Shown one piece after another: positions 18,159-36,344 of a DNA stretch of 64,000 bases; the stretch's first letter is position 1, and every line of letters starts with the position of its first letter. The notes beneath the pieces are model-generated. The model saw only the letters and a program-made list of their open reading frames with translations. It did not search any database and was not told the origin of the DNA. The stretch is from Erythrobacter sp. (GTDB taxonomy: Bacteria; Pseudomonadota; Alphaproteobacteria; Sphingomonadales; Sphingomonadaceae), in the NCBI GenBank assembly GCA_009993605.1, contig JAACTB010000007.1, forward strand, positions 1 to 64,000, given 5' to 3'. A program made the translations under genes and the position numbers.

Positions 18159-18968
18159 TCAGTCGTTCAGAGACTCAAGCAAGCGGGTTTCGAGCCACTG
18201 GCGGGCGTGAGGTTCGACATAGGCGTGGCCCGCTTTCGGGCAGCGCGCGATCCGCGCATCGCTCGCGTCCCAGTTCTCGATGAAAACCTGCGCGGTGCGA
18301 TCGGCTTCGGCGAGGAGAATGCGAACCGAGCCCGAAAATCCGGCCAATCCATCGCGCAAATCGCCTGCGAGCGTGCTCGGCGCGGCTTTCGGCCCCACCG
18401 CCCGCGCGATCCCGCGCAACAGCTTGCGGTAATCGACGCCGCCCGACAGCAGCCGGGCAATCTCGCGTGGATTTTTCAGTTTCGCGATATAGCGCGCGCG
18501 GATCGCGCTGGCGGGGGGCGTCGTATCGGAACCTGAATCGTCGCCTTCGTCACCCGCATCCCCCGCTTCCTCGATCGTCCACGGGTTGGACAGGACCAGC
18601 GCATCGCAGCCCGCGCCGCCCGCAAGCATCAGTGCGCTGGCCGCATCGCAATTGCCGAAGCCGACGACGCGCGAAACCTGCGGCGCTGCCTCGCGAAACG
18701 CGGCGAGAGCGGCGCGGATGTCGGCCTCTTCGTCGCGAAATCCCCGATTGATGCCCTCGCTGTCTCCGACCCCGCGTCGGTCGAAGCGAAAGACCGGGAA
18801 ACCCTGCTCGGCCAGCGATGCGGCCAACGAGGCCTGCCCTGAAAATGCGCCGCTGCGGATCTCGTTACCGCCCGTCACGAGCAATAGGCCGGTCGTCTTT
18901 TCGCCCTCATCGAGCGTCGCGGCGAGGCGATCGCTTTCGCACAGAAAAGTGAGGTGGCGCCGGGTCAC
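18159..18968 (-). CDS. Hydrolase 1, exosortase A system-associated
   Basis: This 269-aa alpha/beta-hydrolase is a marker of XrtA loci. GLLLVTGGNEIRSG, FRFDRRGVGDSEG (61-72) and the expected elbow after a beta strand are visible. The elbow reads GFGNCDAAS, so Cys107 takes the place of the usual serine. The C-terminal CPKAGHAYVEPHARQW could supply the histidine. The GTG at 18968 is chosen because it overlaps the stop of hydrolase 2 as GTGA; an upstream reading through that gene encodes only basic low-complexity sequence. Its substrate is unknown; a role in releasing carrier-bound acyl groups is an inference from the ACP and ligase neighbours. Confidence 0.85.
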   Translation of the reverse strand: MTRRHLTFLCESDRLAATLDEGEKTTGLLLVTGGNEIRSGAFSGQASLAASLAEQGFPVFRFDRRGVGDSEGINRGFRDEEADIRAALAAFREAAPQVSRVVGFGNCDAASALMLAGGAGCDALVLSNPWTIEEAGDAGDEGDDSGSDTTPPASAIRARYIAKLKNPREIARLLSGGVDYRKLLRGIARAVGPKAAPSTLAGDLRDGLAGFSGSVRILLAEADRTAQVFIENWDASDARIARCPKAGHAYVEPHARQWLETRLLESLND

Positions 18969-19642
18969 GAGACGAGCTCCATGGCGATGATCGCGGCGAG
19001 GGCATCGGCCTGATCGGGATCCTCGCTCGGTTCCGCGCGCAGCCAGAGGGGCGATCCGCCGAGCGTGGCCTGATCGACGATGCGAAGGCGCGGATCGGCG
19101 GGCGCGTCGGCCTGTTCGAGTTGCGCGATCATTTCGGCCGACAAATGCCATCCGGCCAGTTCCAAACCCTGTTCGCGTCCGGTCTCGAGCAAACTCTCGA
19201 CCTTCTCCGCGCGACCCGCCTCGCGCGAGGCGATCGTACGCGCGCGAAGCAGCGCCCGCAGGATCTGGCGGCCCTTCGAGGGAGCATACAGGAAACCGGG
19301 CAGATGATCGGGCGCCAACAGACCGCCGCCGCGAATGGCCAGGATATGCGTGGCTTCAAAATGGTTCGCCGCTTCGCGAACGGCGGCGCGCCAATCGGCC
19401 AGCGATTGCTTCTCGAGCGGAGCCGGACTTTCATTGCAGCCTGGAAGATCGGGCAGGACACTGTCGATCCCAGCCCCGTCGAGGCGGCGCATCACCGCGA
19501 CGATCTGCCGCCGCAGCTTGTTGTGCTCGTCGAACAGCGGCGGAAGGATCAGCAACCGCGATAGGCGCCCCTTCTCGAAGGACAGTACCAGTTCCTGGCT
19601 GTGCCCGCGATCGCCCAGAGGCGCGTTCCAGCTCGCGTACAC
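18965..19642 (-). CDS. Hydrolase 2, exosortase A system-associated
   Basis: This 225-aa alpha/beta-hydrolase-fold protein is paired with hydrolase 1 in XrtA loci. It shows ILPPLFDEHNKLRRQIV (32-48) and LPDLPGCNES (63-72). At the place where a nucleophile elbow would be it has LAIRGGGLLA (101-110), with no Ser, Cys or Asp, so it may be a non-catalytic partner or use another residue. The start is GTG 19642, 11 nt after the acyl carrier protein stop. The gene overlaps hydrolase 1 by GTGA, so the two are translated together. Confidence 0.82.
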   Translation of the reverse strand: MYASWNAPLGDRGHSQELVLSFEKGRLSRLLILPPLFDEHNKLRRQIVAVMRRLDGAGIDSVLPDLPGCNESPAPLEKQSLADWRAAVREAANHFEATHILAIRGGGLLAPDHLPGFLYAPSKGRQILRALLRARTIASREAGRAEKVESLLETGREQGLELAGWHLSAEMIAQLEQADAPADPRLRIVDQATLGGSPLWLRAEPSEDPDQADALAAIIAMELVS

Positions 19643-19653
19643 GCCCCGTCCGC

Positions 19654-19980
19654 TCAGCCCTGGACTGCCTTGGCCTCGGCAAAGGCGAGGAGGCCGCCAT
19701 AGGTCTCGAGCATTTCGCCGTCGATGTCGTCATCCTCGATCACGATATCGAGGCGATCCTCCATCTCGGTGAGGAGGCCCGCCACCGCCATGGAATCGAG
19801 TTCCGGCAGATGGCCGAACAGGCCCGTTTCCGCATCGAACCGCTCCACCCGCTCCTGATCGAGGCCGAGCACATCCCGCAGGATCGCCCGCAAAGTCTTA
19901 TCGACCTCGCTTCGGCTCGGCCCGGTGGCATCGGTTTCGATTGCGTCGGTCTGGACGGCTTCGGTCCGGCTTGCGGTCAT
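19654..19980 (-). CDS. Acyl carrier protein, exosortase A system-associated
   Basis: This 108-aa protein is a dedicated acyl/peptidyl carrier. The phosphopantetheine attachment site is Ser63 in PELDSMAVAGLL, a variant of the DSL motif with Met. Flanking helices are EVDKTLRAILRDVLGL (25-40) and a C-terminal helix around GLLAFAEAKAV. The first 20 residues are a flexible acidic-threonine tail. It lies between the FemAB/GNAT-like gene (34 nt upstream) and hydrolase 2 (11 nt downstream). With the divergent acyl ligase and PLP decarboxylase it should form a carrier-bound pathway for a small building block or modifying group. Confidence 0.85.
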   Translation of the reverse strand: MTASRTEAVQTDAIETDATGPSRSEVDKTLRAILRDVLGLDQERVERFDAETGLFGHLPELDSMAVAGLLTEMEDRLDIVIEDDDIDGEMLETYGGLLAFAEAKAVQG

Positions 19981-20014
19981 GGCGTGAGTATCCCCTGCAC
20001 TTGCGGATGGGCGC

Positions 20015-21127
20015 TTACCCGCGCCTCGGACGTGAGGCAAGCGGGCGCACTTTCCCGCCGGTCAGCACCTCGACGCCCTTCGCAACGACCTTGGCCGCCA
20101 GCAGCGCGGCCCCGCGCGGCTGTCGCCAGTCGATGCAGGTGAGGGCATAGCGTGGCCGTTCTCCATCCATCCAGTCGCGCTTGTAGCCATCGCTGCCGGT
20201 GCCGAAATCGATCAGATCGACTTTATCGCGGTCGATGACATGTTCGAACAGCGCCGCGCTGAGCGTGGTTCCGGCCGAAAGGTGCCGGTGTTCGGCATCG
20301 TAGGCCAGTTTATGGATATAGGCCGTGCCACCTTCGACGGTCCAGAACTGCGCGGCGACCGGCTCTCCATCATGGCGCGCGACGCCCACCCGCAGGCGAC
20401 GCGCTTCTCCCTCGGCACGCGCAAACGCTTCGAGCAGGGCGGCATCCTGTTCCTCGCCCTTCCAGCTTCGACCGTAGATCGCGCGATAGGCATCCCAGTC
20501 TTCGGATCGGAATTCGGTAGCGATCGAGACGCTGACCTTTTTCGCCTTGCGCTTGAGCGTGGTGCGCATCTGGCCCGGTCGAGCGGCCCAATAGTCGGCG
20601 AAACTCCGGCCTCTCACATCGAGGACGTGGTTGGTGTCGCAGACCGAGCGATGCGTTATCCACCCTGCCTTGCGGAAGGCACGGGGGAGGCGCCCCGCGC
20701 TTCCGTCGGCGCTTCCATCCTCGCCCGGCAGGCATTCGAGCGCGACGCGGTGCGTGCGGCTCTTCAGATCGCGGGCGATCGCGGTGAGAAGAGCGTCGCC
20801 CAAGGCGCCCTCGGGCGCAAGCGGTCTCCAGGTGAAGGCGAAGACGTGATGCAGGCTTTCGAGTGCGCGTCCCCGCCGCGCCAATGGCAGAGCCGCCACG
20901 CCGTAATCCGCTTCGGCCAGCGCGACCAGCGGCTCGCCGCCGGTTTCTTTGGGGCCGTGATCCTCGAGAAGACGATACCAGGAGAGGCGATCGAACGGTC
21001 CTGTGGCGAACTGGTCGAGCGCATGGCCATGGGATGCTTGCAGTTTGCTAACACTCTCGTGATAGCTGACACTGGCATGGGGCGCCGCCGAGGCGGTTTT
21101 CTCCCATGACGCCACCGAAGAATGCAT
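20015..21127 (-). CDS. GNAT/FemAB-like N-acetyltransferase, exosortase A locus
   Basis: This 370-aa protein has the double-GNAT BioF2/FemAB-like layout. The second domain contains RSFADYWAARPGQMRTTLKRK, a GVARHDGEPVAAQFWTVEGG stretch and DLIDFGTGSDGYKRDWMDG, typical of the family often labelled CelD-like. Such enzymes transfer an acyl or aminoacyl group to a sugar or peptide amine. The ACP follows 34 nt downstream, so the donor may be carrier-bound (inference). The ATG at 21127 is preferred; a GTG at 21154 is possible, though it would overlap the ribosome site of the divergent ligase gene. Only 29 bp separate the two genes. Confidence 0.82.
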   Translation of the reverse strand: MHSSVASWEKTASAAPHASVSYHESVSKLQASHGHALDQFATGPFDRLSWYRLLEDHGPKETGGEPLVALAEADYGVAALPLARRGRALESLHHVFAFTWRPLAPEGALGDALLTAIARDLKSRTHRVALECLPGEDGSADGSAGRLPRAFRKAGWITHRSVCDTNHVLDVRGRSFADYWAARPGQMRTTLKRKAKKVSVSIATEFRSEDWDAYRAIYGRSWKGEEQDAALLEAFARAEGEARRLRVGVARHDGEPVAAQFWTVEGGTAYIHKLAYDAEHRHLSAGTTLSAALFEHVIDRDKVDLIDFGTGSDGYKRDWMDGERPRYALTCIDWRQPRGAALLAAKVVAKGVEVLTGGKVRPLASRPRRG

Positions 21128-21156
21128 TGCCGTCAAACCGTCCTCCAGGAGCACTC

Positions 21157-22683
21157 ATGCCGATCGCGCCAGACCCGGTTCCATTTCCGCTCGACCATCT
21201 GGTCGTCCGCGGCAAGGATGAAGCAACGGCGCTTATACTGCGTGACCGGCGGTTTAGCTATCGAGAGTTAAGAGCGCGTATAGCTTGCCTGGCGGCCTGG
21301 CTCGCGGTCGAGCTTCCCGAGGGCGCACGCGTGGCCAGCTGGGCGGCGAAGGGCGAGACGACCTGCCTGCTGCCCCTGGCGGCGGCGCGTGCGGGGCTGG
21401 TCCATGTGCCGATCAATCCGTTGCTGAAGCGCGCTCAGGTCTCCCACATCCTCGCCGATAGCGGCGCCGAAATGCTGATCGGGACGCGCGCGCGGCTCGG
21501 CACGCTTGAATCGGGCGATGCGCCCGCCGCCTGTCGGCTCCTTGACGAGGAAGACTGCTGGCACGAGGCGGAAAGGCTCGGCGGCGATCTCGGCCCGTCG
21601 TCGCGTGACCCCGACGAGTTGGCCGCGATCCTCTATACCAGCGGCTCGACCGGCAAGCCCAAGGGTGTGATGCTGAGCCATGCGAATATGTGGCTGGGCG
21701 CGGTCAGCGTGGCGCATTATCTCGGGATGGAGGCGGACGACGTCACGCTTGCGGTCTTGCCATTGAGTTTCGATTACGGCCAGAACCAGTTGTTTTCCAG
21801 CTGGATTGTCGGCGCATCCGTGGTGCCGCTCGATTACCTTTTTCCGCGCGATGTCGCCAAGGCTTGCGCGAAGCATGGGGTCACGACGCTGGCCGCCGTG
21901 CCGCCTTTGTGGGTGCAGCTGACCGAAGTCGAATGGCCGAACGGTTCGGCGAAGACGCTGCGGCGCCTGACCAATAGCGGCGGAGCGCTGACCCGCGAAC
22001 TGGTCGCCGATCTGCGCGCGCGCTTCCCCCAAGCCCGGCTCTTCCCGATGTATGGCCTGACGGAGGCGTTTCGTTCGACCTATCTCGATCCCGATCTGGT
22101 GGACAGCCATCCGACCTCCATGGGCAGCGCGATCCCGTTCGCGGAAATCCTGGTCGTGACGGACGAGGGCGGCTTGGCCGCGCCGGGGGAGGAGGGCGAA
22201 CTGGTCCATTGCGGCCCGCTGGTGGCGCAAGGATACTGGCAGGACGAAAAGCGCACTGCCGAACGCTTCAAGCCCGCACCCAAGGATAGCGAACATGGCG
22301 GCATGGCGGTCTATTCCGGCGATCGCGTGCGGCGCGATGCGGACGGATTGCTGTATTTCGTCGGGCGGCGCGACGCGATGATCAAGAGTGCGGGCAACCG
22401 CATCAGCCCGCAGGAGCTGGAAGACGCCGCACGTTCGACCGATCTCGTCAGCGAAGCGGTCGCGCTGGGCGTGCCGGACGAGCGGCTGGGCCAGGCGGTC
22501 CATCTGGTGGTGCGCGGCGATGCGGGGCGCGATGCGGAGTTGAAGGCCGCGCTGGCGAAAGAGCTTCCGAATTTCATGCAGCCGCAGGCGATCCACTGGC
22601 GCGAGACGTTGCCGGTGAACCCAAACGGAAAGCTCGATAGAACTTTAATTTCGCAACAGATAATGGCGGAGATCCGCGCATGA
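21157..22683 (+). CDS. Acyl-CoA ligase (AMP-forming), exosortase A system-associated
   Basis: This 508-aa ANL-family enzyme is the ligase typical of XrtA loci. Motifs are ILYTSGSTGKPKGVMLSH (from about 158), MYGLTEAFRSTYLDP (A5), YSGDRVRRDADG (A7) and the C-terminal PVNPNGKLDR with its catalytic lysine. It probably adenylates an acid and loads it on CoA or on the ACP encoded divergently. The ATG at 21157 has a strong AGGAG site; a start 17 codons earlier is in frame but lacks one. It overlaps the PLP decarboxylase gene by ATGA. Confidence 0.9.
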   Translation: MPIAPDPVPFPLDHLVVRGKDEATALILRDRRFSYRELRARIACLAAWLAVELPEGARVASWAAKGETTCLLPLAAARAGLVHVPINPLLKRAQVSHILADSGAEMLIGTRARLGTLESGDAPAACRLLDEEDCWHEAERLGGDLGPSSRDPDELAAILYTSGSTGKPKGVMLSHANMWLGAVSVAHYLGMEADDVTLAVLPLSFDYGQNQLFSSWIVGASVVPLDYLFPRDVAKACAKHGVTTLAAVPPLWVQLTEVEWPNGSAKTLRRLTNSGGALTRELVADLRARFPQARLFPMYGLTEAFRSTYLDPDLVDSHPTSMGSAIPFAEILVVTDEGGLAAPGEEGELVHCGPLVAQGYWQDEKRTAERFKPAPKDSEHGGMAVYSGDRVRRDADGLLYFVGRRDAMIKSAGNRISPQELEDAARSTDLVSEAVALGVPDERLGQAVHLVVRGDAGRDAELKAALAKELPNFMQPQAIHWRETLPVNPNGKLDRTLISQQIMAEIRA

Positions 22684-23918
22684 GCGACACCGGAAAGCCG
22701 GTCGGACCGATCCCGGCGGGATATGAAACGCGCGATGGCGAACTCGCCGTCGACGGCCAAACGGCCTCGCAATTGGTCGAGCGGGCGGGGCGCACCCCGC
22801 TCTTCGTCTATTCCAGCGCGATGATGTCGCGCCGCGTCGCTGACCTGCGCGCGGCGATGCCCGACCGGTTGAAGATCAATTACGCGATCAAGGCCAACAG
22901 CTTCGCGCCGGTGCTGAAGCACATGGCGGGTCTGGTCGACGGGCTGGATATCGCCTCGGGCGGCGAGCTCGACATGGTGCGCGCCGCAGGGATCGATTGC
23001 GCGCGGGTGAGCTTCGCAGGCCCGGGCAAGCGCGACAGCGAGTTGGAAAACGCCATTAGGCATGGCGCCACTCTCAATCTCGAAAGCGAGGGCGAGGCAG
23101 AGCGCGCGCTTGCCATCGCAGAGCGGCTCGGAACGGCGCCCCGTCTCGCCATCAGAGTCAATCCCGACTTCGAACTGAAGGGGTCGGGCATGAAAATGGG
23201 CGGCGGCGCCAAGCCCTTCGGCGTCGATGCCGAGCGGGTGCCCGCTCTGGCGCGCCGGATCGTCGATGCGAGGGCGGAATGGCGGGGGCTCCATATCTTT
23301 ACCGGCAGCCAGGCGCTCGATGCGGATGCCGTGATCGATGCGCAGGCAAACGTCCTCGACCTGGCGCAGCGCATCGTTGAGAAGGCTGGGGTTCGCCTGC
23401 CGAAGCTGAACATGGGTGGAGGTTTAGGAATTCCTTATTTCTCCGGTGACACGCCGATCGACGCGCAGCGGATCGGCGCGGCGCTGGAAGAGCGTTTCGC
23501 TGCCCGTGCCGACGTGATGGCGGACACCGAATTCTTCATCGAACTGGGCCGCTATCTCGTGGGCGAGGCGGGCGTCTATCTGACTCGGATCGTCGATCGG
23601 AAGGTCAGCCATGGCGAAACCTACTTGATCACCGACGGGGGCCTGCACCATCAGCTCGCCGCATCGGGCAATTTCGGCACGGTCGTCAGGCGCAACTACC
23701 CCGTCGCCATCGCCACGCGCTTCGACCGGGAGAAGGCAGAGATCGCCAATGTCGTCGGCTGTCTGTGCACGCCGCTGGATAGGCTGGCCGACAAGGCGCA
23801 TCTCCCCCGGGCCGAGGTCGGGGATATCGTCGCCGTGTTCTGCGCCGGAGCCTACGGCGCCAGCGCATCGCCGAGCGCGTTTCTGGGGCAGGGTCCGGCA
23901 GCAGAAATGATGGTGTGA
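22680..23918 (+). CDS. Pyridoxal-dependent decarboxylase, exosortase A system-associated
   Basis: This 412-aa protein is a fold-type III PLP decarboxylase (LysA/ornithine decarboxylase family) of the branch found in XrtA loci. The PLP lysine is K71 in NYAIKANSF. GGGLGIPYFSGD is the phosphate-binding loop and AVFCAGAYGASASPS the C-terminal active-site motif with its cysteine. It should decarboxylate a D-centre amino acid or a carrier-tethered equivalent; the substrate is unknown. It is coupled to the ligase by ATGA. A 175-bp gap follows before the export genes. Confidence 0.9.
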   Translation: MSDTGKPVGPIPAGYETRDGELAVDGQTASQLVERAGRTPLFVYSSAMMSRRVADLRAAMPDRLKINYAIKANSFAPVLKHMAGLVDGLDIASGGELDMVRAAGIDCARVSFAGPGKRDSELENAIRHGATLNLESEGEAERALAIAERLGTAPRLAIRVNPDFELKGSGMKMGGGAKPFGVDAERVPALARRIVDARAEWRGLHIFTGSQALDADAVIDAQANVLDLAQRIVEKAGVRLPKLNMGGGLGIPYFSGDTPIDAQRIGAALEERFAARADVMADTEFFIELGRYLVGEAGVYLTRIVDRKVSHGETYLITDGGLHHQLAASGNFGTVVRRNYPVAIATRFDREKAEIANVVGCLCTPLDRLADKAHLPRAEVGDIVAVFCAGAYGASASPSAFLGQGPAAEMMV

Positions 23919-23923
23919 ATGCT

Positions 23924-23940: not shown

Positions 23941-23978
23941 GCAGCCACGCGGAGGCCGCATTTGCGCGCGGTTCCGGC

Positions 23979-23987: not shown

Positions 23988-24093
23988 CCGTATGTTCACC
24001 TTTCTGCTCCATTAAGGAGGGTGAAATCCGGGGGAAAGCCAACGTGCTTGCGCGCAGGCTAGTCCTCCCATGCTGACGTCAGGAATATCCTTT

Positions 24094-24741
24094 ATGCGTT
24101 TCAATCGCTTGTCTGCCGTAATCGCGACATGCTGCGCGGCGATGCTGGGCTTGTCCGGCTGCGCCACATCCAGCGCCAGCGGCGAGCTTCCGCCCGCCAC
24201 CTTCGTCGCCTTGCAGGAAGGGCCGGGCGAGGATTACGTGATCGGTCCGCTCGACAATCTGACGATCCATGTCTGGCGCAATCCCGAACTGGGCGCGGAA
24301 AAGATCCAGGTCCGCCCCGATGGGCGGATCACGATCCCTCTCGTCAAGGACATGCCCGCCGTCGGCAAGACGCCGTCCATGCTGGAAGAGGATATCCGCC
24401 TCCAGTTGAGCCAGTATATCGAAGACCCGCTCGTCAGCGTTATCGTCAACGAATTCGCGGGCACGTTCAGCCAGCAGGTCCGCATCGTCGGCGCAACGGA
24501 AAAGCCCGCTTCGCTGCCCTATCGCGCCAATATGACCGTGCTCGACGCGATGATCGCCGTCGGTGGGCTCAACGAATACGCGGCGGGCAATCGCGCCAAG
24601 CTGATCCGCTTCGACAAGCAGTCCGGTCGCCAGCGCGAATACGAGCTGCGCCTGACCGATCTCCTGCGCCGGGGCGACAGCGACGCGAACGTCATGCTCA
24701 ATCCGGGCGATGTGATCATCATCCCCGAATCGGTCTTCTGA
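24094..24741 (+). CDS. XrtA-associated polysaccharide export lipoprotein (Wza-like)
   Basis: This 215-aa outer-membrane auxiliary (OMA/Wza-type) protein forms the export pore or its base for the polysaccharide. A lipoprotein signal ends in GLSGC (lipidated Cys23). Then come the Poly_export domain (DYVIGPLDNLTIHVWRNPEL, about 45-65) and a SLBB-like domain (VRIVGATEKPASLPYRAN and following), ending in NPGDVIIIPESVF, the usual C-terminus of these proteins. The ATG at 24094 is 8 nt after AGGAA; an ATG at 24070 is a weaker alternative. The chain-length gene follows by 13 nt. Confidence 0.93.
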   Translation: MRFNRLSAVIATCCAAMLGLSGCATSSASGELPPATFVALQEGPGEDYVIGPLDNLTIHVWRNPELGAEKIQVRPDGRITIPLVKDMPAVGKTPSMLEEDIRLQLSQYIEDPLVSVIVNEFAGTFSQQVRIVGATEKPASLPYRANMTVLDAMIAVGGLNEYAAGNRAKLIRFDKQSGRQREYELRLTDLLRRGDSDANVMLNPGDVIIIPESVF

Positions 24742-24754
24742 GGACTTTTCCGCG

Positions 24755-26278
24755 ATGAACGAAGTCTTCGAGGAACTGCGCGCAGCGCTCCACCAGGTGT
24801 GGAACCGCCGCTGGCTGGCGCTGGCGGTGGCATGGGGCGTCTGCGTCCTCGGCTGGTTCGTGGTCGCCATGATCCCCAACAGCTATATGAGCCAGGCGCG
24901 GCTCTACGTGCAGCTTGATGACGTCCTGTCCGAACAGCTCGACATATCGGGTGACGGCAAGCAGGAAATGACGCGGGTGCGCCAGACGCTGGCGAGCCGG
25001 GTCAATCTCGAAAAGGTGATCCGCGGCACGCGCCTTGGCGAAGACATCGCGACCGATAGCGAAATGCAGGGGGCGATCGACAGTCTCACCAAGGCGGTGA
25101 CGATCAAGAGCGAGCAGGAAAACCTGTTCGAAATCGCCGCGACCATCGGCAAGGGCGATCTGAGCGATGCCGAGAACGCCAAGCTCTCGCAGGAAGTCGT
25201 CCAGAGCCTGATCGATATTTTCCGTGAGGACAATATCGCCGGCAATCGCGGTGAAGTGGCCGATACGATCGTCTTCCTCGACCAGCAGCTCGAAGACCGC
25301 AAGGCCGAGCTGGAGGCCGCCGAGCAGCGCCGCCTTGCCTTCGAGTCGCAATATCCCGAACTGATCGGTGGCACCGGGTCGGTCGGCAACCGCTTGCAGA
25401 CCTTGCAGACCGAGATGCGCGGTGTCGATGCCGACATCGCCGCTGCGCAGTCTGCGCTCGCCGGGATCAGCGGGCAGCTTTCGGGCACGCCGCGCACCAT
25501 CACCATGCCCGGCATGGGCGGGGGCGGGGCGAGCGGGGCGCTGGCGCAAGCCGAGGCGCAGCTCGCCGGAATGCGCTCGCGCGGCCTGACCGACAGCCAT
25601 CCCGACATCCAGGCGACCGAACGCCAGATCCAGCTGCTGCGCCGCCAGGCTGCCCGCGAAGGCGATGGATCGGTGGGCGCACCCAACCCGGCCTATTCCT
25701 CCCTCGTCGCCATTCGCGTCGAGCGTCAGGCCAATCTCCAGGCCCTGCAGGCCCGCAAGGCTGCGCTTCAGTCGGACATTTCCTCGCTGATCGCCGCACA
25801 GGCTCAGGAGCCCGAAGTCGCTGCCGAAGCCAATCGCATCAGCCGCGATTACGAGGTACTGAAGTCGAAATATGACGAGCTTCTGAAGGATCGCGAGGAA
25901 ATGCGCCTGCGCGGCCAGGTCCAGACCGAGCGCAGTTCGCTGCAATTCCAGGTGGTCGACCCGCCTGCCGTCCCGCGCAATCCTGCTGCGCCCAATCGGC
26001 CGATCCTTTTGCTGGGCGTTCTCTTCGCGGGTCTTGCCGCAGGTGCCGGAACCGCTTTCGTGATCGGGCAATTGCAGGCGAGCTTCACCACGGCGGACAA
26101 GCTCGAGCGCGTTCTCGATCTCCCCGTCGTCGGCACAATCTCGCGCTCGATGACCGACATCCGCCGCGCGCAGGAGCGCAAGCAGTTCAAGCAATTCGCC
26201 GGTGGCCTCGCCGGTCTGTTCGGGGTCTGCGTGATCCTGCTGGCCGTCGAATTCATCCAGGTCGGATCGGTGGCGTGA
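24755..26278 (+). CDS. XrtA system polysaccharide chain-length determinant (Wzz/GumC-like)
   Basis: This 507-aa inner-membrane co-polymerase controls chain length and links synthesis to the outer-membrane exporter. A first transmembrane helix lies at about 19-40 and a large periplasmic region between helices has long coiled coils (about 165-385, rich in Gln, Glu, Arg). A proline-containing FQVVDPPAVPRNPAAPNRP segment precedes the second helix (about 413-437), and there is a further hydrophobic stretch near the C-terminus (483-505). The tyrosine kinase domain is not fused to it; it is encoded by the next gene, 10 nt downstream. Confidence 0.92.
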   Translation: MNEVFEELRAALHQVWNRRWLALAVAWGVCVLGWFVVAMIPNSYMSQARLYVQLDDVLSEQLDISGDGKQEMTRVRQTLASRVNLEKVIRGTRLGEDIATDSEMQGAIDSLTKAVTIKSEQENLFEIAATIGKGDLSDAENAKLSQEVVQSLIDIFREDNIAGNRGEVADTIVFLDQQLEDRKAELEAAEQRRLAFESQYPELIGGTGSVGNRLQTLQTEMRGVDADIAAAQSALAGISGQLSGTPRTITMPGMGGGGASGALAQAEAQLAGMRSRGLTDSHPDIQATERQIQLLRRQAAREGDGSVGAPNPAYSSLVAIRVERQANLQALQARKAALQSDISSLIAAQAQEPEVAAEANRISRDYEVLKSKYDELLKDREEMRLRGQVQTERSSLQFQVVDPPAVPRNPAAPNRPILLLGVLFAGLAAGAGTAFVIGQLQASFTTADKLERVLDLPVVGTISRSMTDIRRAQERKQFKQFAGGLAGLFGVCVILLAVEFIQVGSVA

Positions 26279-26288
26279 GGAGCGCGTG

Positions 26289-27332: not shown

Positions 27333-27336
27333 GCCC

Positions 27337-29019: not shown

Positions 29020-29032
29020 TAGGACCTCTCTC

Positions 29033-30229
29033 ATGTACGAACAGTTCTACGGCTTTTCAGAGCGGCCCTTCCAGCTCACGCCCGACCCCGCCTATTTCTT
29101 CGAGAGCGTCACGCACAAGAAGGCGCTGTCCTATCTGGGCTATGGCCTGAACCAGGGCGAAGGGTTCGTGGTCATCACCGGCGAGGTCGGCTCGGGCAAA
29201 TCGACGCTGGTCGCGCATCTCAAGGAAAAGCTCGACGACCGGATGAGCGTGGGCGAGGTGGTCACCAGCGCGCTCGATGGCGAGGAGATGATCCACGTTG
29301 CCGCGCGCAGTTTCGGCCTCGATGTCGAAGGGCGTGACAAGGCGGCGGCGCTCGCCGCGATCGAGCATTTCCTCCACGAGGAAGCGCGCAACGGCAAACG
29401 TTGCCTGCTGATCGTCGACGAATCCCAGAATCTCTCGATCGGCGCGCTCGAGGAATTGCGGATGCTGTCGAACTTCCAGCTCGGCGCGCACCCGCTCCTG
29501 CAGACGCTTCTGCTCGGCCAGCCGGAGTTCAAGCGCTTGCTCGCCAGCTCCGACGAGCTCGAGCAATTGCGCCAGCGCGTGATCGCCGCGCATCACTTGG
29601 AAGCGATGCAGCCGGGCGAGATCGAGCTCTATGTCCATCATCGCCTGAACCATGTCGGCTGGGACGGGGAGCCGGATTTCGAGCGCGGCCTGTTCACGCG
29701 AATGCACAAGGCGACGGGCGGCATCCCGCGCAAGATCAACCAGGTCATGACTCGCCTGCTGTTGCTCGGTGCGGTCGAGGAGCAGTCGACCATCGATCTC
29801 GCCATGCTGGATGCGGTGATCGAGGAAATGACGGGCGATTCTTCCGCCGAAGAGGCGGTCGTGGACGATCGCGTGCGGCCCGATCCGAACAAGAAGGCAG
29901 CGCAAGCCGTCGCCGATGCGAAGCGCGAGGAGCAGGATCGCGCTCGCGCATCGCAGCCGAGCAGCAGCGAGCAGGGCTTGGCCGAAGCGCAGATCGCCGC
30001 TATCGAGGCGGCTTTCGGCGGCCACGAGAACCAGATTGCGAAACTGCGCCGCGAGGTTTCGGAACTGCAGCAGGCGGGCGCAGGATCGGGCGAAACCGTC
30101 TCCGAAGCCATCGAGCAACGCCTCGCAGCGATGGAAGCCCGCCTGTCCGAACAGGAAGCGTCGATCCGCCACGTCTTGTCGCTGCTGATCGAGCATTTCG
30201 AGGCCGACGGCCGTCGCGCTGCCGCCTGA
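29033..30229 (+). CDS. XrtA/PEP-CTERM system-associated ATPase (ExeA/GspA-like)
   Basis: This 398-aa AAA-type ATPase resembles type II secretion ExeA/GspA and is a fixed member of XrtA loci. It starts with MYEQFYGFSERPFQLTPDP, the family N-terminus. Walker A is GEVGSGKST (50-58), Walker B CLLIVDESQNLS (about 123-134), followed by a sensor and lid in GGIPRKINQVMTRLL. The last third (about 290-390) is a charged coiled coil with Ala/Glu/Gln stretches. It probably couples ATP hydrolysis to export or cell-wall passage (inference). The deacetylase starts 16 nt downstream. Confidence 0.92.
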   Translation: MYEQFYGFSERPFQLTPDPAYFFESVTHKKALSYLGYGLNQGEGFVVITGEVGSGKSTLVAHLKEKLDDRMSVGEVVTSALDGEEMIHVAARSFGLDVEGRDKAAALAAIEHFLHEEARNGKRCLLIVDESQNLSIGALEELRMLSNFQLGAHPLLQTLLLGQPEFKRLLASSDELEQLRQRVIAAHHLEAMQPGEIELYVHHRLNHVGWDGEPDFERGLFTRMHKATGGIPRKINQVMTRLLLLGAVEEQSTIDLAMLDAVIEEMTGDSSAEEAVVDDRVRPDPNKKAAQAVADAKREEQDRARASQPSSSEQGLAEAQIAAIEAAFGGHENQIAKLRREVSELQQAGAGSGETVSEAIEQRLAAMEARLSEQEASIRHVLSLLIEHFEADGRRAAA

Positions 30230-30245
30230 GGCGAGGATTATAGGC

Positions 30246-31133
30246 GTGGAACAGCGCACGATATCATCCTCTGCGATCCTCAACGGCCTGTCGGTCGATG
30301 TGGAGGACTGGTTTCAGGTCGGCGCGTTCGAGAATACGATCGATCGCGCGGACTGGGACGGAATGGCGCTGCGCGTTGCGGACAATGTCGGCTTCGTGCT
30401 CGACCTGTTCGATGCCTGTGAGGTCAAGGCGACGTTCTTCACCCTTGGCTGGGTGGCGGAGCGCGAGCCCGCGGCGATCCGTGCCATCGTCGAGCGGGGG
30501 CACGAACTGGCCAGCCACGGTTACGATCACGCGCGGGTCTTCACCATGACCCGCAAGCAATTCGCCGCCGATCTGGCGAAGACCCGCGCCATTCTCGAAA
30601 ATGCAGGCGGCACTGCAATCAGCGGCTATCGCGCGCCAAGTTTTTCGATCGATGCGCGCACGCCATGGGCGCACGAGGTTCTGGCGGAGCAGGGCTATCG
30701 CTACAGCTCCAGCGTCGCGCCGATCGTGCACGACCATTACGGATGGCGCGAGGCGCCGCGCTTCGCCTTCCGCCCGGTGGAGGGCAGCGAGCTTGTCGAG
30801 ATACCGGTGACCACCGCCCAGATCGGCGAGCGGCGCCTGGCGGCGGGCGGGGGCGGCTTCTTCCGCGTCCTGCCCTATGCTTTCTCGAACTGGGCGATCA
30901 AACGCGTGAATCAGCGCGACGAGCGCCCGGCCATCTTCTATTTCCATCCTTGGGAAATCGATCCCGACCAACCCCGCGTCGAGGGCGCGCCGCTGCGATC
31001 GCGTGTGCGCCACTACACCAATTTGTCCAAAATGGCAGGCAAGCTGACGAAGCTGGCTGGCGATTTCAGCTGGGGCCGGATGGACGAAATCGCCCGGATA
31101 GAAGCGCAGCGCTGCGTTCCCTTCGTATCGTGA
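30246..31133 (+). CDS. XrtA system polysaccharide deacetylase (DUF3473)
   Basis: This 295-aa NodB-type deacetylase should remove acetyl groups from amino-sugars of the exported polymer. The metal and catalytic motif is LSVDVEDWFQ (Asp18, Glu20, Asp21). LASHGYDHARV carries the paired His residues and GYRAPSFSID the next conserved motif. The C-terminal part (FYFHPWEIDPDQPR and after) is the DUF3473 domain typical of the XrtA form. The start is GTG 30246. It overlaps the FemAB-like gene by GTGA. Confidence 0.92.
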   Translation: MEQRTISSSAILNGLSVDVEDWFQVGAFENTIDRADWDGMALRVADNVGFVLDLFDACEVKATFFTLGWVAEREPAAIRAIVERGHELASHGYDHARVFTMTRKQFAADLAKTRAILENAGGTAISGYRAPSFSIDARTPWAHEVLAEQGYRYSSSVAPIVHDHYGWREAPRFAFRPVEGSELVEIPVTTAQIGERRLAAGGGGFFRVLPYAFSNWAIKRVNQRDERPAIFYFHPWEIDPDQPRVEGAPLRSRVRHYTNLSKMAGKLTKLAGDFSWGRMDEIARIEAQRCVPFVS

Positions 31134-32206
31134 ACGCGCCGACGCGCCTTCCCACGCCGACCGTCTCGCTCGTCCGGCTGAGCGATCCGAACGAGGCCGC
31201 CCGGATCGAGAGTTTCGTTCGCGGTTATGGCGGATCGGTTTTCCAGCGACCGCTGTGGCTGCGCGCAATCGAGCGGGGTACGGGGCAGGAGACTATGGGG
31301 CTGGCGCTGGAACGGGCGGGGCGCCTTGCGGCCTGGCTACCGCTCACGCTGGTGCATTCGCCTCTCTTCGGTCGAGCGCTGGTGTCGAGCGGGTTCGGAG
31401 TGGGCGGCGGCGTGTTGGCCGAACGGCGGCCGGACGCTGAAGTCCTGTGCAGAGCGGCAGAGGAACTGGCGCTTCGAAACAACGCCCGCTCAATCGAACT
31501 GCGTGGCGGCGAAGCGCCTGAGGATTGGCAAACAACGTCGACAAGTCACTGTAATTTCATCGGCGATCTGGCCGATAATGACGAAGCGCAATTGCTCGCC
31601 ATCCCCCGCAAGGCGCGCGCCGAGGTGCGTAAGGGGTTGAACGCCGATTTTTCGATCGCCGTCGGATCGGTTGAGGACGATCGCGCGGCGCATTACGCCG
31701 TCTATGCCGAAAGCGTGCATAATCTCGGCACGCCGGTGTTCCCGCGTGGTCTGTTCGATGCCGTGCTGGATTGTTTCGGCGCCGATGCCAATATCCTGAC
31801 CGTGCGCCACGAGGGCACGCCGGTGGCGAGCGTTCTGTCGCTCTATCATGACGACGGAAATGGCCGTGCCGTCATGCCGTATTGGGGCGGCGGCACCTTC
31901 GCGGCTCGGGGATTGCGCGCCAATGAGCGGATGTATTACGAACTGATGCTTCACGCTCGCAAACGCGGCTGTACACGGTTCGATTTCGGACGTTCCAAGA
32001 CCGGCAGCGGTCCCTATCATTTCAAGACAAACTGGGGGTTCGAGCCGGAACCTCTTACCTATTCTAGCTGGAGCGCGCCTGGCGAGGAGGCGCGCAACAT
32101 CGATCCGACGGATGCGAGCTACGCCCGCAAGATCGAACTGTGGAAGCGCTTGCCTCTTTCCGTAGCCAATATGATCGGTCCCTATATCGCACGCGGCCTG
32201 GGTTGA
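31130..32206 (+). CDS. FemAB family XrtA/PEP-CTERM system-associated protein
   Basis: This 358-aa FemAB/GNAT-like protein is the form that recurs next to the deacetylase in XrtA loci. A GGSVFQRPLWLRAI segment opens the first acyltransferase-like domain, and PRKARAEVRKGL, YAESVHNLGTPVFPRGLFD and FDFGRSKTGSGPYHFKTNWGFEPEP belong to the second. FemABX proteins transfer aminoacyl groups from aminoacyl-tRNA; the acceptor here is not known and could be the polymer. The GTG at 31130 overlaps the deacetylase stop (GTGA). The glycosyltransferase starts 8 nt later. It is distinct from the GNAT-like gene at 20015-21127. Confidence 0.88.
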   Translation: MNAPTRLPTPTVSLVRLSDPNEAARIESFVRGYGGSVFQRPLWLRAIERGTGQETMGLALERAGRLAAWLPLTLVHSPLFGRALVSSGFGVGGGVLAERRPDAEVLCRAAEELALRNNARSIELRGGEAPEDWQTTSTSHCNFIGDLADNDEAQLLAIPRKARAEVRKGLNADFSIAVGSVEDDRAAHYAVYAESVHNLGTPVFPRGLFDAVLDCFGADANILTVRHEGTPVASVLSLYHDDGNGRAVMPYWGGGTFAARGLRANERMYYELMLHARKRGCTRFDFGRSKTGSGPYHFKTNWGFEPEPLTYSSWSAPGEEARNIDPTDASYARKIELWKRLPLSVANMIGPYIARGLG

Positions 32207-32213
32207 GCGCAGC

Positions 32214-33434
32214 GTGGGGGACATCCTCTTCCTCGCCCACCGCGTGCCCTTTCCACCCGACCGCGGGGACAAGATCCGCTCGCATCACCTATTGAAGGGG
32301 TTGGCGAAGCTCGGCCGCGTCCATGTCGGCACCTTTGCCGAGACCGATCAGGACCGTGAGCAAGAAACAAGCCTTGCCGAGATCGCAGCCGGTTATTGCC
32401 TGCCGACGCGGTCGAAGGCCCTGCCGCGCGCCGGGATGCAGGCGCTGTGCAGGAACAGCGCCGTCAGCCAGACGGCCTTCTTCGACGCGGAGCTTGCGAA
32501 ATGGGTTGATGATACGCTTGCCGAGCAGCCCATAGACACGATCTTCGTGTTCTCGGGGCAGATGGGGCAATATATCCCGTCCGATTTCGCGGGCCGGATA
32601 GTGGTCGATCTCTGCGATGTCGATAGCGAGAAATTCGCGACCTATGCGCAGGAAAGCGGCTTCCCGCGCTCGCTTCTCTATCGGCGAGAGGCTGCCTTGC
32701 TGTCAGCCGAAGAGGTCCACCTCGCCCGGTCTGCCGACACGACGCTCCTGATTAGCGAAAAAGAAGCAGACATCTTGCGCACGCGCCGGGGCGCCGAGCG
32801 GGCCGATATCCGCGCTTTGGGCAACGGGGTCGACACGGATTTCTTCGATCCCGCAGCCACCGATCCGCATCCGGCTTTGGCGGGGGAGGGGCACCACCTC
32901 GTCTTCACGGGTCAGATGGATTATCCGCCAAACATCGCGGCAGTCGGACGGTTCGCACGCCGGATCCTGCCGAATATCCGTGAGCGGCTCGCGGCGCAGT
33001 TCCATATCGTCGGCCGCGCGCCGACCCCGGAGGTCGTGAAGCTCGCAGAAATTGAGGGGGTTACGGTCTGGGGCGAGGTCCCCGACGTTCGCCCCTTCCT
33101 GCGCAGCGCGGATGCAGTCGTGGCGCCGCTGCTGCTGGCGCGCGGGGTTCAGAACAAGGTGCTGGAGGCGATGGCCATGGCCCGTCCCGTCCTTGCGAGC
33201 GAAGAAGCGGCGACCGGTATCGACGCCACGGACGGCCAACATTGGCGGATCTGCCGCGACGACCAAGCTTTCGAGCGCACGATCCTCGACCTGGCGTCCG
33301 ACAGCGATCGGGCCAAAGACATGGGCCGGGCAGCGCGGCGCTTCGTCGTTGAAAACATGAGCTGGGAAGCCGTCGAAGCAGGTCTCGCCGATATTCTCGG
33401 GCAAGCCGACGCGCGCCATCACGATGCGACGTGA
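32214..33434 (+). CDS. TIGR03087 family PEP-CTERM/XrtA system glycosyltransferase
   Basis: This 406-aa GT-B (family 4-like) glycosyltransferase is specific to XrtA loci. It starts with ILFLAHRVPFPPDRGDKIRSH. The middle has VVDLCDVDSEKF and NGVDTDFFDP, and the C half has HHLVFTGQMDYPPNI, VWGEVPDVRPFL and the nucleotide-sugar site region PLLLARGVQNKVLEAMAM. It should add a sugar to a lipid-linked intermediate at the cytoplasmic membrane. The start is GTG 32214, 8 nt after the FemAB-like gene, and the 3' end overlaps xrtA by 11 nt. Confidence 0.92.
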   Translation: MGDILFLAHRVPFPPDRGDKIRSHHLLKGLAKLGRVHVGTFAETDQDREQETSLAEIAAGYCLPTRSKALPRAGMQALCRNSAVSQTAFFDAELAKWVDDTLAEQPIDTIFVFSGQMGQYIPSDFAGRIVVDLCDVDSEKFATYAQESGFPRSLLYRREAALLSAEEVHLARSADTTLLISEKEADILRTRRGAERADIRALGNGVDTDFFDPAATDPHPALAGEGHHLVFTGQMDYPPNIAAVGRFARRILPNIRERLAAQFHIVGRAPTPEVVKLAEIEGVTVWGEVPDVRPFLRSADAVVAPLLLARGVQNKVLEAMAMARPVLASEEAATGIDATDGQHWRICRDDQAFERTILDLASDSDRAKDMGRAARRFVVENMSWEAVEAGLADILGQADARHHDAT

Positions 33435-34437
33435 TCTGCATCTCCAATCCACTGGAAGCGAGACCCTGCCGTCATGGAAGCAGGCGCTCACGGGCATCGC
33501 GCTGCTTTGCGGGGCACTTTTCGTCCTGACCCTGCGCGAATGGGGAGAGATGGCCTGGCAATGGTGGAACAGCGACAGCTACGCGCACATCCTGCTGGTC
33601 CCGCCGATCGTCCTATGGCTGATCTGGATACGGCGGGAGGCGCTGGCCCAGACGGACCCACGCCCCTGGTGGCCGGGGTTGGCCTTGCTCGGTGCGGCTC
33701 TCGCCCTTTGGGTCATCGGACGAGCGAGCGGGCTCAACCTCCTCGCCCATGCCGGTGCTGTCGCCGCCTTGGCGTCGAGCGTGCCGGTCGTGCTCGGTCC
33801 ACGCGCGACGGCGCTGCTGGCGCTCCCGCTCGGCTTCATGGTCTTCCTCGTGCCCTTCGGGGAGGAGATCGTCTGGCCGATGCAGATCGTCACGGCCCGC
33901 CTCGTTATCCAGTTGGCGCATCTCAGCGGGATCGATGCCGCGCTCGACGCGATCCACATCACGACGCCGTTCGGCCTGTTCATCGTCGCCGAAGCGTGTT
34001 CGGGTGTCAAATTCCTGATTGCGATGATCGCGCTCGGCGTCCTCGCCGCGTTCACGGGTTTTTCGAGCTGGAAACGCAGGATCGTGTTCCTGCTCGCCTG
34101 TTTCATCGTACCCATTCTCGCCAATGCGGTCCGGGCGTGGGGCACGATTTATATCGCCCAGTTCATCGGCGCCGAGCGGGCGGGCGGAGTCGATCACCTG
34201 ATATACGGATGGGTCTTCTTCGCCGTGGTCGTCGCCATCGTGCTCGGCCTCGCGTGGCGCTGGTTCGAGCGAACGCCGGACGGAGCGGGATGGTCGCTCG
34301 CGGAGCTGGCGCGCAGTCCACTGCTCGCACGTCTTGAGGTATTCGCGGCTCCGTTGCTGATCGTGTTGGGCGCGGCGATCGGCCTGGGGGCGATCGCCGC
34401 CGGTTTCGCGATTGGCCTTTCGCCGGCATACGGTTAG
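33424..34437 (+). CDS. xrtA: Exosortase A (transpeptidase-like sorting enzyme), no EpsI domain
   Basis: XrtA is an integral membrane protease/transpeptidase that recognises PEP-CTERM tails and removes them. The 337-aa protein has about eight transmembrane helices. The proposed catalytic residues are Cys192 in VAEACSGVKF, Arg237 in NAVRAW and His258 in GVDHLIYGW. A last hydrophobic segment (about 307-331) is followed by only SPAYG. In many alphaproteobacterial relatives an EpsI (DUF3485) domain follows at this point; here it is absent, and no frameshift remnant is seen before the next gene 11 nt on. The ATG at 33424 overlaps the glycosyltransferase. Confidence 0.93.
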   Translation: MRRDLHLQSTGSETLPSWKQALTGIALLCGALFVLTLREWGEMAWQWWNSDSYAHILLVPPIVLWLIWIRREALAQTDPRPWWPGLALLGAALALWVIGRASGLNLLAHAGAVAALASSVPVVLGPRATALLALPLGFMVFLVPFGEEIVWPMQIVTARLVIQLAHLSGIDAALDAIHITTPFGLFIVAEACSGVKFLIAMIALGVLAAFTGFSSWKRRIVFLLACFIVPILANAVRAWGTIYIAQFIGAERAGGVDHLIYGWVFFAVVVAIVLGLAWRWFERTPDGAGWSLAELARSPLLARLEVFAAPLLIVLGAAIGLGAIAAGFAIGLSPAYG

Positions 34438-34448
34438 GAGCGGGCGCC

Positions 34449-36344
34449 ATGTGCGGGATCGCCGGTATCTTTCATTGCGGCACGCCGAAGCCGGTTGAAC
34501 CGCACCGGGTCGAGCGGATGTGCGACGCGATCGCCCATCGTGGCCCGGACGGGTCCGGCGTGTGGACTGCACCGGGCGTCGGCCTCGGCCATCGCCGCCT
34601 CTCAGTCATCGATCTCGCCGGATCGCCCCAGCCGATGCATTCCGTGGATGGTCGGGCGGTGCTGGTCTTCAATGGGGAAATCTACAATTTCAGGTCCTTG
34701 CGGCGCGAACTTGAAGAAAAAGGCGCGAAGTTCCGCACCGACGGCGACAGCGAAACCATCCTGGCGGCATGGCAGGCCTGGGGTCCCGACTGCCTGAGCC
34801 GTCTTGAAGGTATGTTCGCCTTCGCGCTTTACGACCTTTCGAAACGCCAGCTCTTCCTGGCGCGCGACCGTCTGGGCGTGAAGCCGCTCTTCACCGCAAC
34901 GCTGAGCGATGGCAGCCTGATCTTCGCATCCGAACTCAAAGGGTTGCTGGCGCATCCTCTGATGCGATCGCAGGTCGATCCGTTGGCCATCGAGGATTAT
35001 ATGACCTGGGGCTACGTGCCCGATCATCGGTCGATCCTTAGAGGCGTCGAGAAGCTACCCGCGGCGCATTTCCGTCTGTTGGAGCATGATCGGCCGCCGG
35101 CACCCCCGCGCCGCTGGTGGGACGTTTCATTCGAAGATCGCGCGCGCGGGTCCGTGGCGGACCAGTCCGCGCAATTGCTCCACCATTTGCGCGAAGGGGT
35201 TTCGAGCCGCATGGTCGCCGACGTCCCGCTCGGTGCCTTTCTGTCTGGCGGAGTTGACAGCTCCAGCGTGGTTGCGCTGATGGCGGAAGCGAGCCGCGAG
35301 CCGGTGACGAGCTGTTCGATCGGCTTCGACGTTGCGGAAGTGGACGAGACCAGTCACGCGAGGCTGGTGGCCGAACGGTTCGGGACCGATCACCGCGAAC
35401 GGATCGTCTCGCCCGGCGATGTGGCCGATCTCGACCGGATCGCTGCGATCTTCGACGAACCCTTCGCCGATGCCTCCGCGCTTCCGACCCTGCGGGTCTG
35501 CGAGCTCGCACGCGAGAGCGTCACCGTAGCGCTGTCGGGGGATGGGGCGGACGAGGCGCTGGCCGGATACCGCAGGCAGGTCTTCCACCATCGCGAGGAG
35601 CAGGCGCGGGCGGTGCTGCCCCAGGCTTTGCGCGGGCCGGTGTTCGGCGCGCTGGGCAAGGTCTGGCCGAAAGCGGACTGGGCGCCGCGTCCCCTCCGCG
35701 CGAAGACGACGTTCCTCTCGCTCGCCGAAGATGGGGCGGCGGGCTATGCGCGGGCATTGGCGATCCTCGATCAGGAGGCCCGTGGGCGGCTCTACGGCGA
35801 GATGCTGCTGCGCGAACGCGGCGAGTATCGCGCGGAAGACGCGCTGATCGAGGTTATGGACAGCGCCCCGGCGCGCAGCGGATTGGACGCGGCGCAATAT
35901 GCCGACCTTACCTTCTGGCTTCCGGGCGATATCCTGACCAAGGTCGACCGCACCAGCATGGCGGTGGGCCTGGAAGCGCGTGAGCCACTGCTGGACCATC
36001 GCCTGATCGAATTTTGCGCCACTCTGCCGGAAAACCGTCGCATACGCGGGCGACAGGGCAAGTGGCTGATGAAACACGCGATGGAGCGGTATCTTACGGA
36101 CGAAATCCTCTATCGCCCGAAACAGGGCTTCGTCACGCCGCTGGCGGAATGGTTTCGCGGGCCACTGGCCGGAATGGCGCGCGGCGTGGCGCGAAGCGAA
36201 GCTCTGGTGGGAAGCGGATGGTTCGATCGCGGCGCGCTGTCGCGTCTCGCGGAACGGCACATCAGCGGCGCCGCGGACAATGGCCGTGTGCTCTACCAAT
36301 TGGTCATGCTGGAGAAGTCGCTGGGCCGGCTCGGAGTCGGCTGA
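34449..36344 (+). CDS. XrtA/PEP-CTERM system amidotransferase (asparagine-synthase-like)
   Basis: This 631-aa protein has an N-terminal class II glutaminase domain starting MCGIAGIFHCG, with Cys2 as nucleophile. Its C-terminal PP-loop synthetase domain has LSGGVDSSSVVALM, and VALSGDGADEALAGY follows further on. It resembles glutamine-hydrolysing asparagine synthase, but in XrtA loci it is thought to amidate a surface polymer or its precursor. It is the last gene of the right arm of the locus, 11 nt after xrtA, and converges on the pirin gene 25 bp away. Confidence 0.93.
   Translation: MCGIAGIFHCGTPKPVEPHRVERMCDAIAHRGPDGSGVWTAPGVGLGHRRLSVIDLAGSPQPMHSVDGRAVLVFNGEIYNFRSLRRELEEKGAKFRTDGDSETILAAWQAWGPDCLSRLEGMFAFALYDLSKRQLFLARDRLGVKPLFTATLSDGSLIFASELKGLLAHPLMRSQVDPLAIEDYMTWGYVPDHRSILRGVEKLPAAHFRLLEHDRPPAPPRRWWDVSFEDRARGSVADQSAQLLHHLREGVSSRMVADVPLGAFLSGGVDSSSVVALMAEASREPVTSCSIGFDVAEVDETSHARLVAERFGTDHRERIVSPGDVADLDRIAAIFDEPFADASALPTLRVCELARESVTVALSGDGADEALAGYRRQVFHHREEQARAVLPQALRGPVFGALGKVWPKADWAPRPLRAKTTFLSLAEDGAAGYARALAILDQEARGRLYGEMLLRERGEYRAEDALIEVMDSAPARSGLDAAQYADLTFWLPGDILTKVDRTSMAVGLEAREPLLDHRLIEFCATLPENRRIRGRQGKWLMKHAMERYLTDEILYRPKQGFVTPLAEWFRGPLAGMARGVARSEALVGSGWFDRGALSRLAERHISGAADNGRVLYQLVMLEKSLGRLGVG

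Follow-up and report, generated by a model that had tools for sequence, protein, structure and literature searches.

A ligase, decarboxylase and carrier-protein trio beside an Erythrobacter exosortase A locus, read as a putative carrier-dependent source of beta-alanine

Within a stretch of 64,000 nucleotides from Erythrobacter sp. (Sphingomonadales; GenBank assembly GCA_009993605.1, contig JAACTB010000007.1, positions 1 to 64,000; hereafter the window), a locus of the exosortase A (XrtA)/PEP-CTERM type is accompanied by genes for an ANL ligase, a pyridoxal phosphate (PLP) decarboxylase and a stand-alone acyl carrier protein (ACP), together called the trio. The reading favoured here, with somewhat better than even confidence, is that aspartate is turned into beta-alanyl-ACP by the trio as a source of beta-alanine for pantothenate and coenzyme A (CoA), the envelope being a second destination in bacteria that have XrtA. 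It draws on observations made by computation, namely the gene set, the residue matches, the retention of the trio without XrtA, the exclusion of the aspartate 1-decarboxylase PanD in genome samples, and two gene fusions. In the proposed mechanism, the ligase would adenylate the side-chain (beta) carboxyl of L-aspartate, the presumed substrate, and load the aspartate onto the ACP; the PLP decarboxylase would strip the alpha-carboxyl to give beta-alanyl-ACP; beta-alanine would be released from the ACP and would feed pantothenate synthetase (PanC), and through it pantothenate and CoA, in bacteria without PanD, this being the XrtA-independent job of the trio. In XrtA genomes, two hydrolases and a FemX-like protein would probably draw on beta-alanyl-ACP for decoration of the exopolysaccharide or some other acceptor in the envelope. 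The three central genes are as follows.

19654..19980, minus strand: stand-alone ACP; Pfam PP-binding over cut-off, NCBIfam generic ACP models only, under cut-off
21106..22683, start probably 21157, plus strand: ANL ligase; TIGR03098, 635.6 bits, over cut-off
22680..23918, plus strand: PLP fold-III decarboxylase; TIGR03099, 577 bits, over cut-off

The decarboxylase finds its best match in the Protein Data Bank (PDB) in BtrK (E 2.3e-69), named there as L-glutamyl-[BtrI carrier protein] decarboxylase, the best diaminopimelate decarboxylase reaching only E 3.5e-47. Residue counts in this analysis take in only rows that scored over set thresholds against the proteins of the window; two pairs of loci (L033/L081 and L037/L065) each represent one genome twice. 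The motif CTP.D, shared with BtrK, stands in 110 of 110 aligned rows, at a site that reads CE..D in the LysA sequences compared; similarly, SP..FLG is common to the window decarboxylase and BtrK and absent from those LysA sequences. The LysA model gives the window decarboxylase 254.1 bits against a cut-off of 297.9, and a role as a second LysA is ruled out by the BtrK match, the CTP.D motif and this sub-cut-off score. The window genome also holds a second, weaker, LysA-like match to the decarboxylase family. Elsewhere, eleven loci (L040-L050) carry BtrK-like decarboxylases under the TIGR03099 cut-off, accompanied in nine cases by a ligase match within the stretch and in no case by a match to exosortase A; these enzymes probably make other products.

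The full-length ligase has amino-acid adenylation domains as its top PDB matches, and its specificity core (window 21700-22200) is matched best by 3wv4/3wvn, labelled nonribosomal peptide synthetase and taken here to be VinN. This assignment fits because a single shift of 16, from the numbering of the chain to that of the paper, aligns Asp230, Ser299 and Arg331 of VinN with matching residues, the window equivalents being D223, S291 and R323. Across the aligned rows the first position is D in 104 of 105 (one gap), the second S in 85 and T in 20, and the third R in all 105. Ligases of at least 250 bits (n = 112) divide into 91 with DSR and 21 with DTR; eleven fall below 250 bits, four of which, at 203-236 bits, read DTR, DAR, DTR and DSR, and the triple is found in none of seven distant paralogues (56-102 bits), four of which come from two loci (L048, L050). 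A plain acyl-CoA ligase, as the family name has it, is disfavoured by the adenylation-domain matches, the VinN-like core and the conserved D-S/T-R, and from its sequence the enzyme is unlikely to act solely on CoA. The phosphopantetheine serine of the ACP lies within LPELDSMAV and is Ser in 101 of 101 aligned rows; the original prediction, a note made from the letters of the window alone, had pointed to a DSM serine, and it sits in LDSM. The same note had proposed a carrier-tethered, decarboxylated (amine-like) group, which gains support from the resemblance of the decarboxylase to BtrK and of the ligase to VinN and from the stand-alone ACP. On these resemblances, the ligase is predicted to load L-aspartate via its beta-carboxyl onto the ACP, and the decarboxylase is predicted to convert beta-aspartyl-ACP to beta-alanyl-ACP.

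The trio also occurs on its own. Seventeen loci are bare, holding only ACP, ligase and decarboxylase: eight among 80 named loci (two with ATPase or deacetylase remnants), six further ones (L155, L156, L157, L159, L160 with an ATPase, and L165) and a last three (L192, L193 and L194). At L051, L058 and L065 the bare trio is flanked on both sides, as judged by eye, by the window's own neighbour genes. In the first 14 bare loci the trio has its catalytic and specificity residues conserved, with T for S in three; neither hydrolase nor the FemX-like gene was matched over the thresholds in these 14, nor were the three genes found at L192-L194, where L194 has one 26-bit hydrolase-1-like match 4 kb off. 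In whole-genome searches, hydrolase 1 was over cut-off in 0/8 bare-trio genomes versus 7/7 others, with one weak fragment in G206. No exosortase match was obtained in 13 of the 17 bare-trio genomes (G201, G203, G204, G206, G207, G282, G302, G311, G320, G328, G332, G343 and G349), and in the other four (G200, G202, G205 and G313) the exosortase is best matched by XrtV. Among the 88 decarboxylase-bearing genomes of a sample from the order, 11 have no exosortase match: the last eight of the 13 just named, which are bare, together with G325, G233 and G214. In G325 the hydrolases and FemX-like gene are still present (L158), the trio neighbourhood of G214 could not be read, and G233 was rejected as an exosortase-free case, its 3.4-kb contig (L195) carrying the end of the export gene and its assembly, 81% complete, being probably just incomplete.

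On a decarboxylase tree built by a quick method, the bare state requires eight changes, at least five of them forced by well-supported branches; this tree preceded L192-L194, and 12 short-flank rows stand outside the 98-row change count and were entered as not bare in the forced-change table. The ratio of nonsynonymous to synonymous substitution rates (dN/dS) is 0.04-0.33 in the bare pairs tested, with one ligase pair saturated, and 0.19-0.20 in an XrtA-linked pair, many dS values exceeding 1; in these bare pairs the trio is under purifying selection. Conversely, three XrtA clusters of family f60 (L171, L172 and L173) have exosortase A over cut-off and no trio, hydrolase or FemX-like gene there or 9-18 kb upstream (L188-L190), and their genomes gave no TIGR03099 match at E 1e-100; PanD is present in G257 and G272 of these genomes and not in G246. 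Genus g147 was set aside as a further trio-free XrtA case, its single typed locus (L166) being XrtD.

These distributions bear on the purpose that the original prediction gave to the trio, namely a carrier-tethered amine that a FemAB/GNAT-like protein puts on XrtA exopolysaccharide or PEP-CTERM proteins. Such a purpose would account for the usual XrtA linkage of the trio, for the FemX-like fold and the FemX-like-ACP fusions of two species, and for the hydrolases and FemX-like gene not having been found at the bare loci (14 + 3). It is nevertheless unlikely as the reason for which the trio exists: the trio persists without these partners in genomes that lack an exosortase or have one of XrtV type, and three XrtA clusters do without the trio. 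The central trio is probably not an XrtA accessory.

The role in beta-alanine supply is suggested by a gap in the same genomes. PanD was found in 0/15 genomes first tested versus 8/14 control genomes, and two genome samples, one of the order (n = 147) and one of the phylum (n = 200), with six genomes shared, repeated the pattern. In the order sample, TIGR03099 is over cut-off in 85 genomes and PanD is present in none of the 85; the only overlap is G315, whose decarboxylase is under cut-off and whose assembly is 76% complete with 4% contamination. The phylum sample has PanD in 123 of 200 genomes and in 0 of the 10 with an over-cut-off decarboxylase (Fisher p 4.9e-5). Within the window's family (64 genomes), PanC is present in 64, PanD in none and the decarboxylase in 60, one of the 60 being G296, whose gene lies in two pieces at contig ends. 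In the window genome PanC is present, with no match to PanD (PF02261), PF00282 (E 1e-10) or TIGR01879 (E 1e-60). A single PLP decarboxylase, 70-98% identical, is common to the four decarboxylase-free genomes of the family (G291, G329, G339 and G341) and is related to diaminobutyrate decarboxylase and PanP, far under those families' cut-offs; this group-II enzyme is a possible aspartate decarboxylase. Any PF00282 match occurs in 8/60 decarboxylase-bearing genomes of the family versus all four without the decarboxylase (p 7.8e-4). The gene for this shared PLP decarboxylase lies at L176 1007-2386 (minus strand), L178 1053-2429 (plus) and L179 173-1705 (minus). In genus g147 (13 genomes sampled), PanC is missing in 12 and the decarboxylase in 13.

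Published counts agree with this gap as far as the consulted parts of one alphaproteobacterial survey go (PMC7142369): PanD, there called ADC, is listed in 37 of 204 genomes, and Table A2 gives, for 19 Sphingomonadales, ADC in 0/19, PYD3 in 2/19 and KPHMT with pantothenate synthetase in 18/19. By these counts PYD3, the last step of the uracil-degradation route, is mostly missing in sphingomonads. Erythrobacter sp. SD-21 is listed without ADC, GAD, PYD2 and PYD3, and two other Erythrobacter rows have GAD (PMC7142369); SD-21 corresponds to locus L051, a bare trio. In the open-access literature searched, no paper connecting the trio with beta-alanine stood out, searches for sphingomonad mutant-fitness literature and on the pantothenate need of Zymomonas gave no result, and in the main text of the 2006 PEP-CTERM paper the terms decarboxylase, ligase and hydrolase never occur. 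The broader proposal, for which the chances are about even, is that a carrier-dependent beta-alanine synthase replaces PanD in much of Sphingomonadales and in scattered proteobacteria, with the XrtA neighbourhood as a secondary customer through an ACP-dependent FemX-like transferase. Such a synthase would be autocatalytic, because the ACP of the trio needs the phosphopantetheine of CoA, a compound that the trio would help to make.

Several points weigh against beta-alanine supply as the role of the trio. In the genome samples the presence of the trio was judged by a search for the decarboxylase alone, not the ligase or ACP; all profile p values ignore kinship, and the profiles rest on few independent events. 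Restricted to the four cases outside the window's family, the phylum sample gives p of about 0.017 only, and although ligase and ACP adjoin the decarboxylase in three of these four, L034 has no adjacent ligase. The PLP decarboxylase shared by the four trio-less genomes occurs also in trio-bearing G296 and, at 55-59% identity, in G313. In the order, 25 genomes are PanC-positive and PanD-negative yet without the decarboxylase; PF00282 is matched in 21 of them, TIGR01879 only in three and neither in one (G221), and matches to these two families are common in trio genomes too outside the window's family. Three decarboxylase-bearing genomes (G214, G215 and G244) have no PanC. No neighbouring gene connects the trio with pantothenate: a query with PanC had no match in the other 28 of 29 loci scanned, a scan in which PanB was not sought. 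The release step is the weakest point of the mechanism, hydrolases 1 and 2 not having been found at the bare trios, and for bolagladin the homologous step yields a carrier-bound residue, free beta-alanine failing to rescue the mutant. As for the ligase, the identity of 3wv4/3wvn with VinN is assumed, the PDB label being just nonribosomal peptide synthetase and a literature check for the PDB codes of VinN having given no result, and a Foldseek search of its model puts CoA ligases in the lead, without discrimination.

A further view is that the trio makes some other small carrier-bound block and that the absence of PanD is only shared lineage background. PanD is uncommon in alphaproteobacteria in general, by the survey count given above, and related decarboxylases under the TIGR03099 cut-off co-occur with it (6/14 in the phylum sample), so that no exclusion holds there. 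Against this stand the four genomes outside the order in which the exclusion holds too, and the single PLP decarboxylase shared by the four trio-less genomes of the window's family; this alternative is judged improbable. Least probable of all is the same module working on the gamma-carboxyl of glutamate to give gamma-aminobutyryl-ACP, as in butirosin, for some XrtA-independent use, which would suit BtrK, the closest solved decarboxylase and one acting on carrier-bound glutamate, but not the ligase core, which resembles the aspartate-type enzyme VinN, nor the PanD exclusion, which gamma-aminobutyrate would leave unexplained.

The surrounding locus lies where the original prediction placed it: 16 consecutive genes, all open, occupy 18159-36344. 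By the NCBIfam curated cut-offs for exosortase-A-associated families, 11 of the 16 are over cut-off, three are under, and two, the ACP and the FemAB/GNAT-like gene, belong to no XrtA family. Exosortase A itself is over cut-off, with export, chain-length, deacetylase and amidotransferase genes linked to it, which places the locus in the XrtA/PEP-CTERM exopolysaccharide system. Such a gene set is usual at XrtA loci, and XrtA systems include additional genes that are counted as members. The usual order among the 80 named loci runs from hydrolase 1 through hydrolase 2, ACP and FemX-like gene to the divergent ligase and decarboxylase and on to the XrtA cluster; the locus is not a chance grouping, because this order recurs across many Sphingomonadales loci. 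The family matches mean that the association with XrtA was already catalogued, and the questions addressed here are the chemistry and the purpose. The remaining 13 genes are listed below.

18159..18977, minus strand: hydrolase 1, an alpha/beta hydrolase with Cys at the nucleophile elbow; TIGR03100, 217.9 bits, over cut-off
18965..19642, minus strand: hydrolase-2-like protein; TIGR03101, 50.6 versus 202.75 bits, under cut-off
20015..21154, start uncertain, minus strand: FemX-like tandem-GNAT protein (the FemAB/GNAT-like gene); Pfam Acetyltransf_6, no XrtA family
24070..24741, plus strand: XrtA polysaccharide export protein; TIGR03027, over cut-off
24755..26278, plus strand: XrtA polysaccharide chain-length determinant; TIGR03007, over cut-off
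26286..27332, plus strand: XrtA-associated tyrosine autokinase (BY-kinase); TIGR03018, 178.8 versus 230.65, under cut-off
27274..29019, start probably 27316 by gene call, plus strand: outer-membrane beta-barrel; TIGR03016, 33.3 versus 90.85, under cut-off
29033..30229, plus strand: XrtA-associated ATPase; TIGR03015, 324.8 versus 324.5 bits, over cut-off
30246..31133, plus strand: XrtA polysaccharide deacetylase; TIGR03006, over cut-off
31127..32206, plus strand: FemAB-family XrtA protein; TIGR03019, over cut-off
32214..33434, plus strand: XrtA-associated glycosyltransferase; TIGR03087, over cut-off
33424..34437, plus strand: exosortase A; TIGR03109, 301.9 bits versus a cut-off of 208
34449..36344, plus strand: XrtA-associated amidotransferase; TIGR03108, 926.8 bits, over cut-off

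The window genome (G000) carries a second exosortase gene on contig 24 (L144 9182-9943, plus strand), best matched by XrtV and under the XrtV cut-off. In other families of the order, five loci (L146, L148, L149, L153 and L161) have an asparagine-synthetase-like gene between the decarboxylase and the export gene.

Envelope decoration as a second use of the same ACP intermediate is about as probable as its opposite, and it turns on the XrtA-linked partners. The FemX-like protein models well, with a mean predicted local distance difference test score (pLDDT) of 89.6. FemX leads its PDB fold matches, with template-modelling (TM) scores of 0.56-0.57 by query at 13% identity; close behind, interspersed with ordinary tandem GNATs, come MprF-type enzymes and peptide synthases that depend on aminoacyl-tRNA. 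The FemX-like gene and the ACP form one reading frame in two species, Alteraurantiacibacter aquimixticola and Blastomonas marina (L081 7158-8453 and L093 7119-8498, both minus strand), from which an internal start could still yield free ACP. The FemX-like protein is predicted to use the ACP-bound group and may pass it to the envelope. The original prediction of a FemAB-like transferase that places the group on polymer or proteins thus keeps its FemX-like fold beside the trio and gains an ACP fusion in two species, and it loses the standing of main purpose. The nucleophile elbow of hydrolase 1 carries Cys in 75 of 80 rows, with gaps in the remaining five, and the protein is a candidate thioesterase or acyltransferase; hydrolase 2 has Arg at the nucleophile position, assigned by eye, in 72 of 74 rows, the rest being gaps, and is probably without a nucleophile. 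This pairing would fit transfer over hydrolysis. Neither hydrolase was retained as the release enzyme for pantothenate supply, both being missing from the bare trios. Just beyond the locus lies a 4HBT (hotdog) thioesterase gene (window 38270-38746, minus strand), and several Erythrobacteraceae loci, L051 and L103 among them, have by eye a similar small gene close to their bare trio, which the Sphingorhabdus locus L088 does not; the thioesterase is a speculative candidate for the enzyme that releases beta-alanine.

Sphingomonads carry pantothenate synthetase without PanD, and the trio, if the beta-alanine reading is true, would fill that gap. It would then give a product to TIGR03098 and TIGR03099, whose names state only enzyme class and neighbourhood, and would place antibiotic-style carrier chemistry within core metabolism; at the same time, a vague association of the trio with XrtA loci becomes testable.

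Among known systems, PanD and PanP would yield the same product, beta-alanine, but are proteins unrelated to the trio, and PanD acts in one step on free aspartate, whereas the trio would need ATP and a carrier. The XrtA/PEP-CTERM exopolysaccharide locus is matched by the ten window genes at 24070-36344, and it differs from a single unit in that the trio and the XrtA cluster are each found without the other. BtrI, BtrJ and BtrK, of butirosin side-chain synthesis, share with the trio a PLP fold-III decarboxylase for a carrier-bound acidic amino acid, BtrK being the closest solved structure; however, the butirosin substrate is glutamate, the pathway serves an antibiotic, and its loading enzyme is reportedly not an ANL ligase. 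In composition the trio resembles VinN, VinL and VinO and their relatives FlvN and BolO, with ANL ligase, stand-alone ACP and PLP decarboxylase, and with the equivalents of Asp230, Ser299 and Arg331 kept in the window ligase. Ligase residues, ACP serine and a BtrK-type PLP decarboxylase place the trio with this type, the decarboxylase having been compared with BtrK and not with VinO itself. According to the part of a review drawn on here (PMC11284099), VinN activates 3-methylaspartate and FlvN aspartate, and VinO decarboxylates the carrier-bound acid. NCBIfam and Pfam searches found no second adenylation enzyme, polyketide synthase or nonribosomal peptide synthetase among the 16 window genes, and therefore the trio would work like the VinN/VinL/VinO module and not as a macrolactam starter pathway; it differs from that module in adjoining XrtA and in being widely retained in a housekeeping-like manner.

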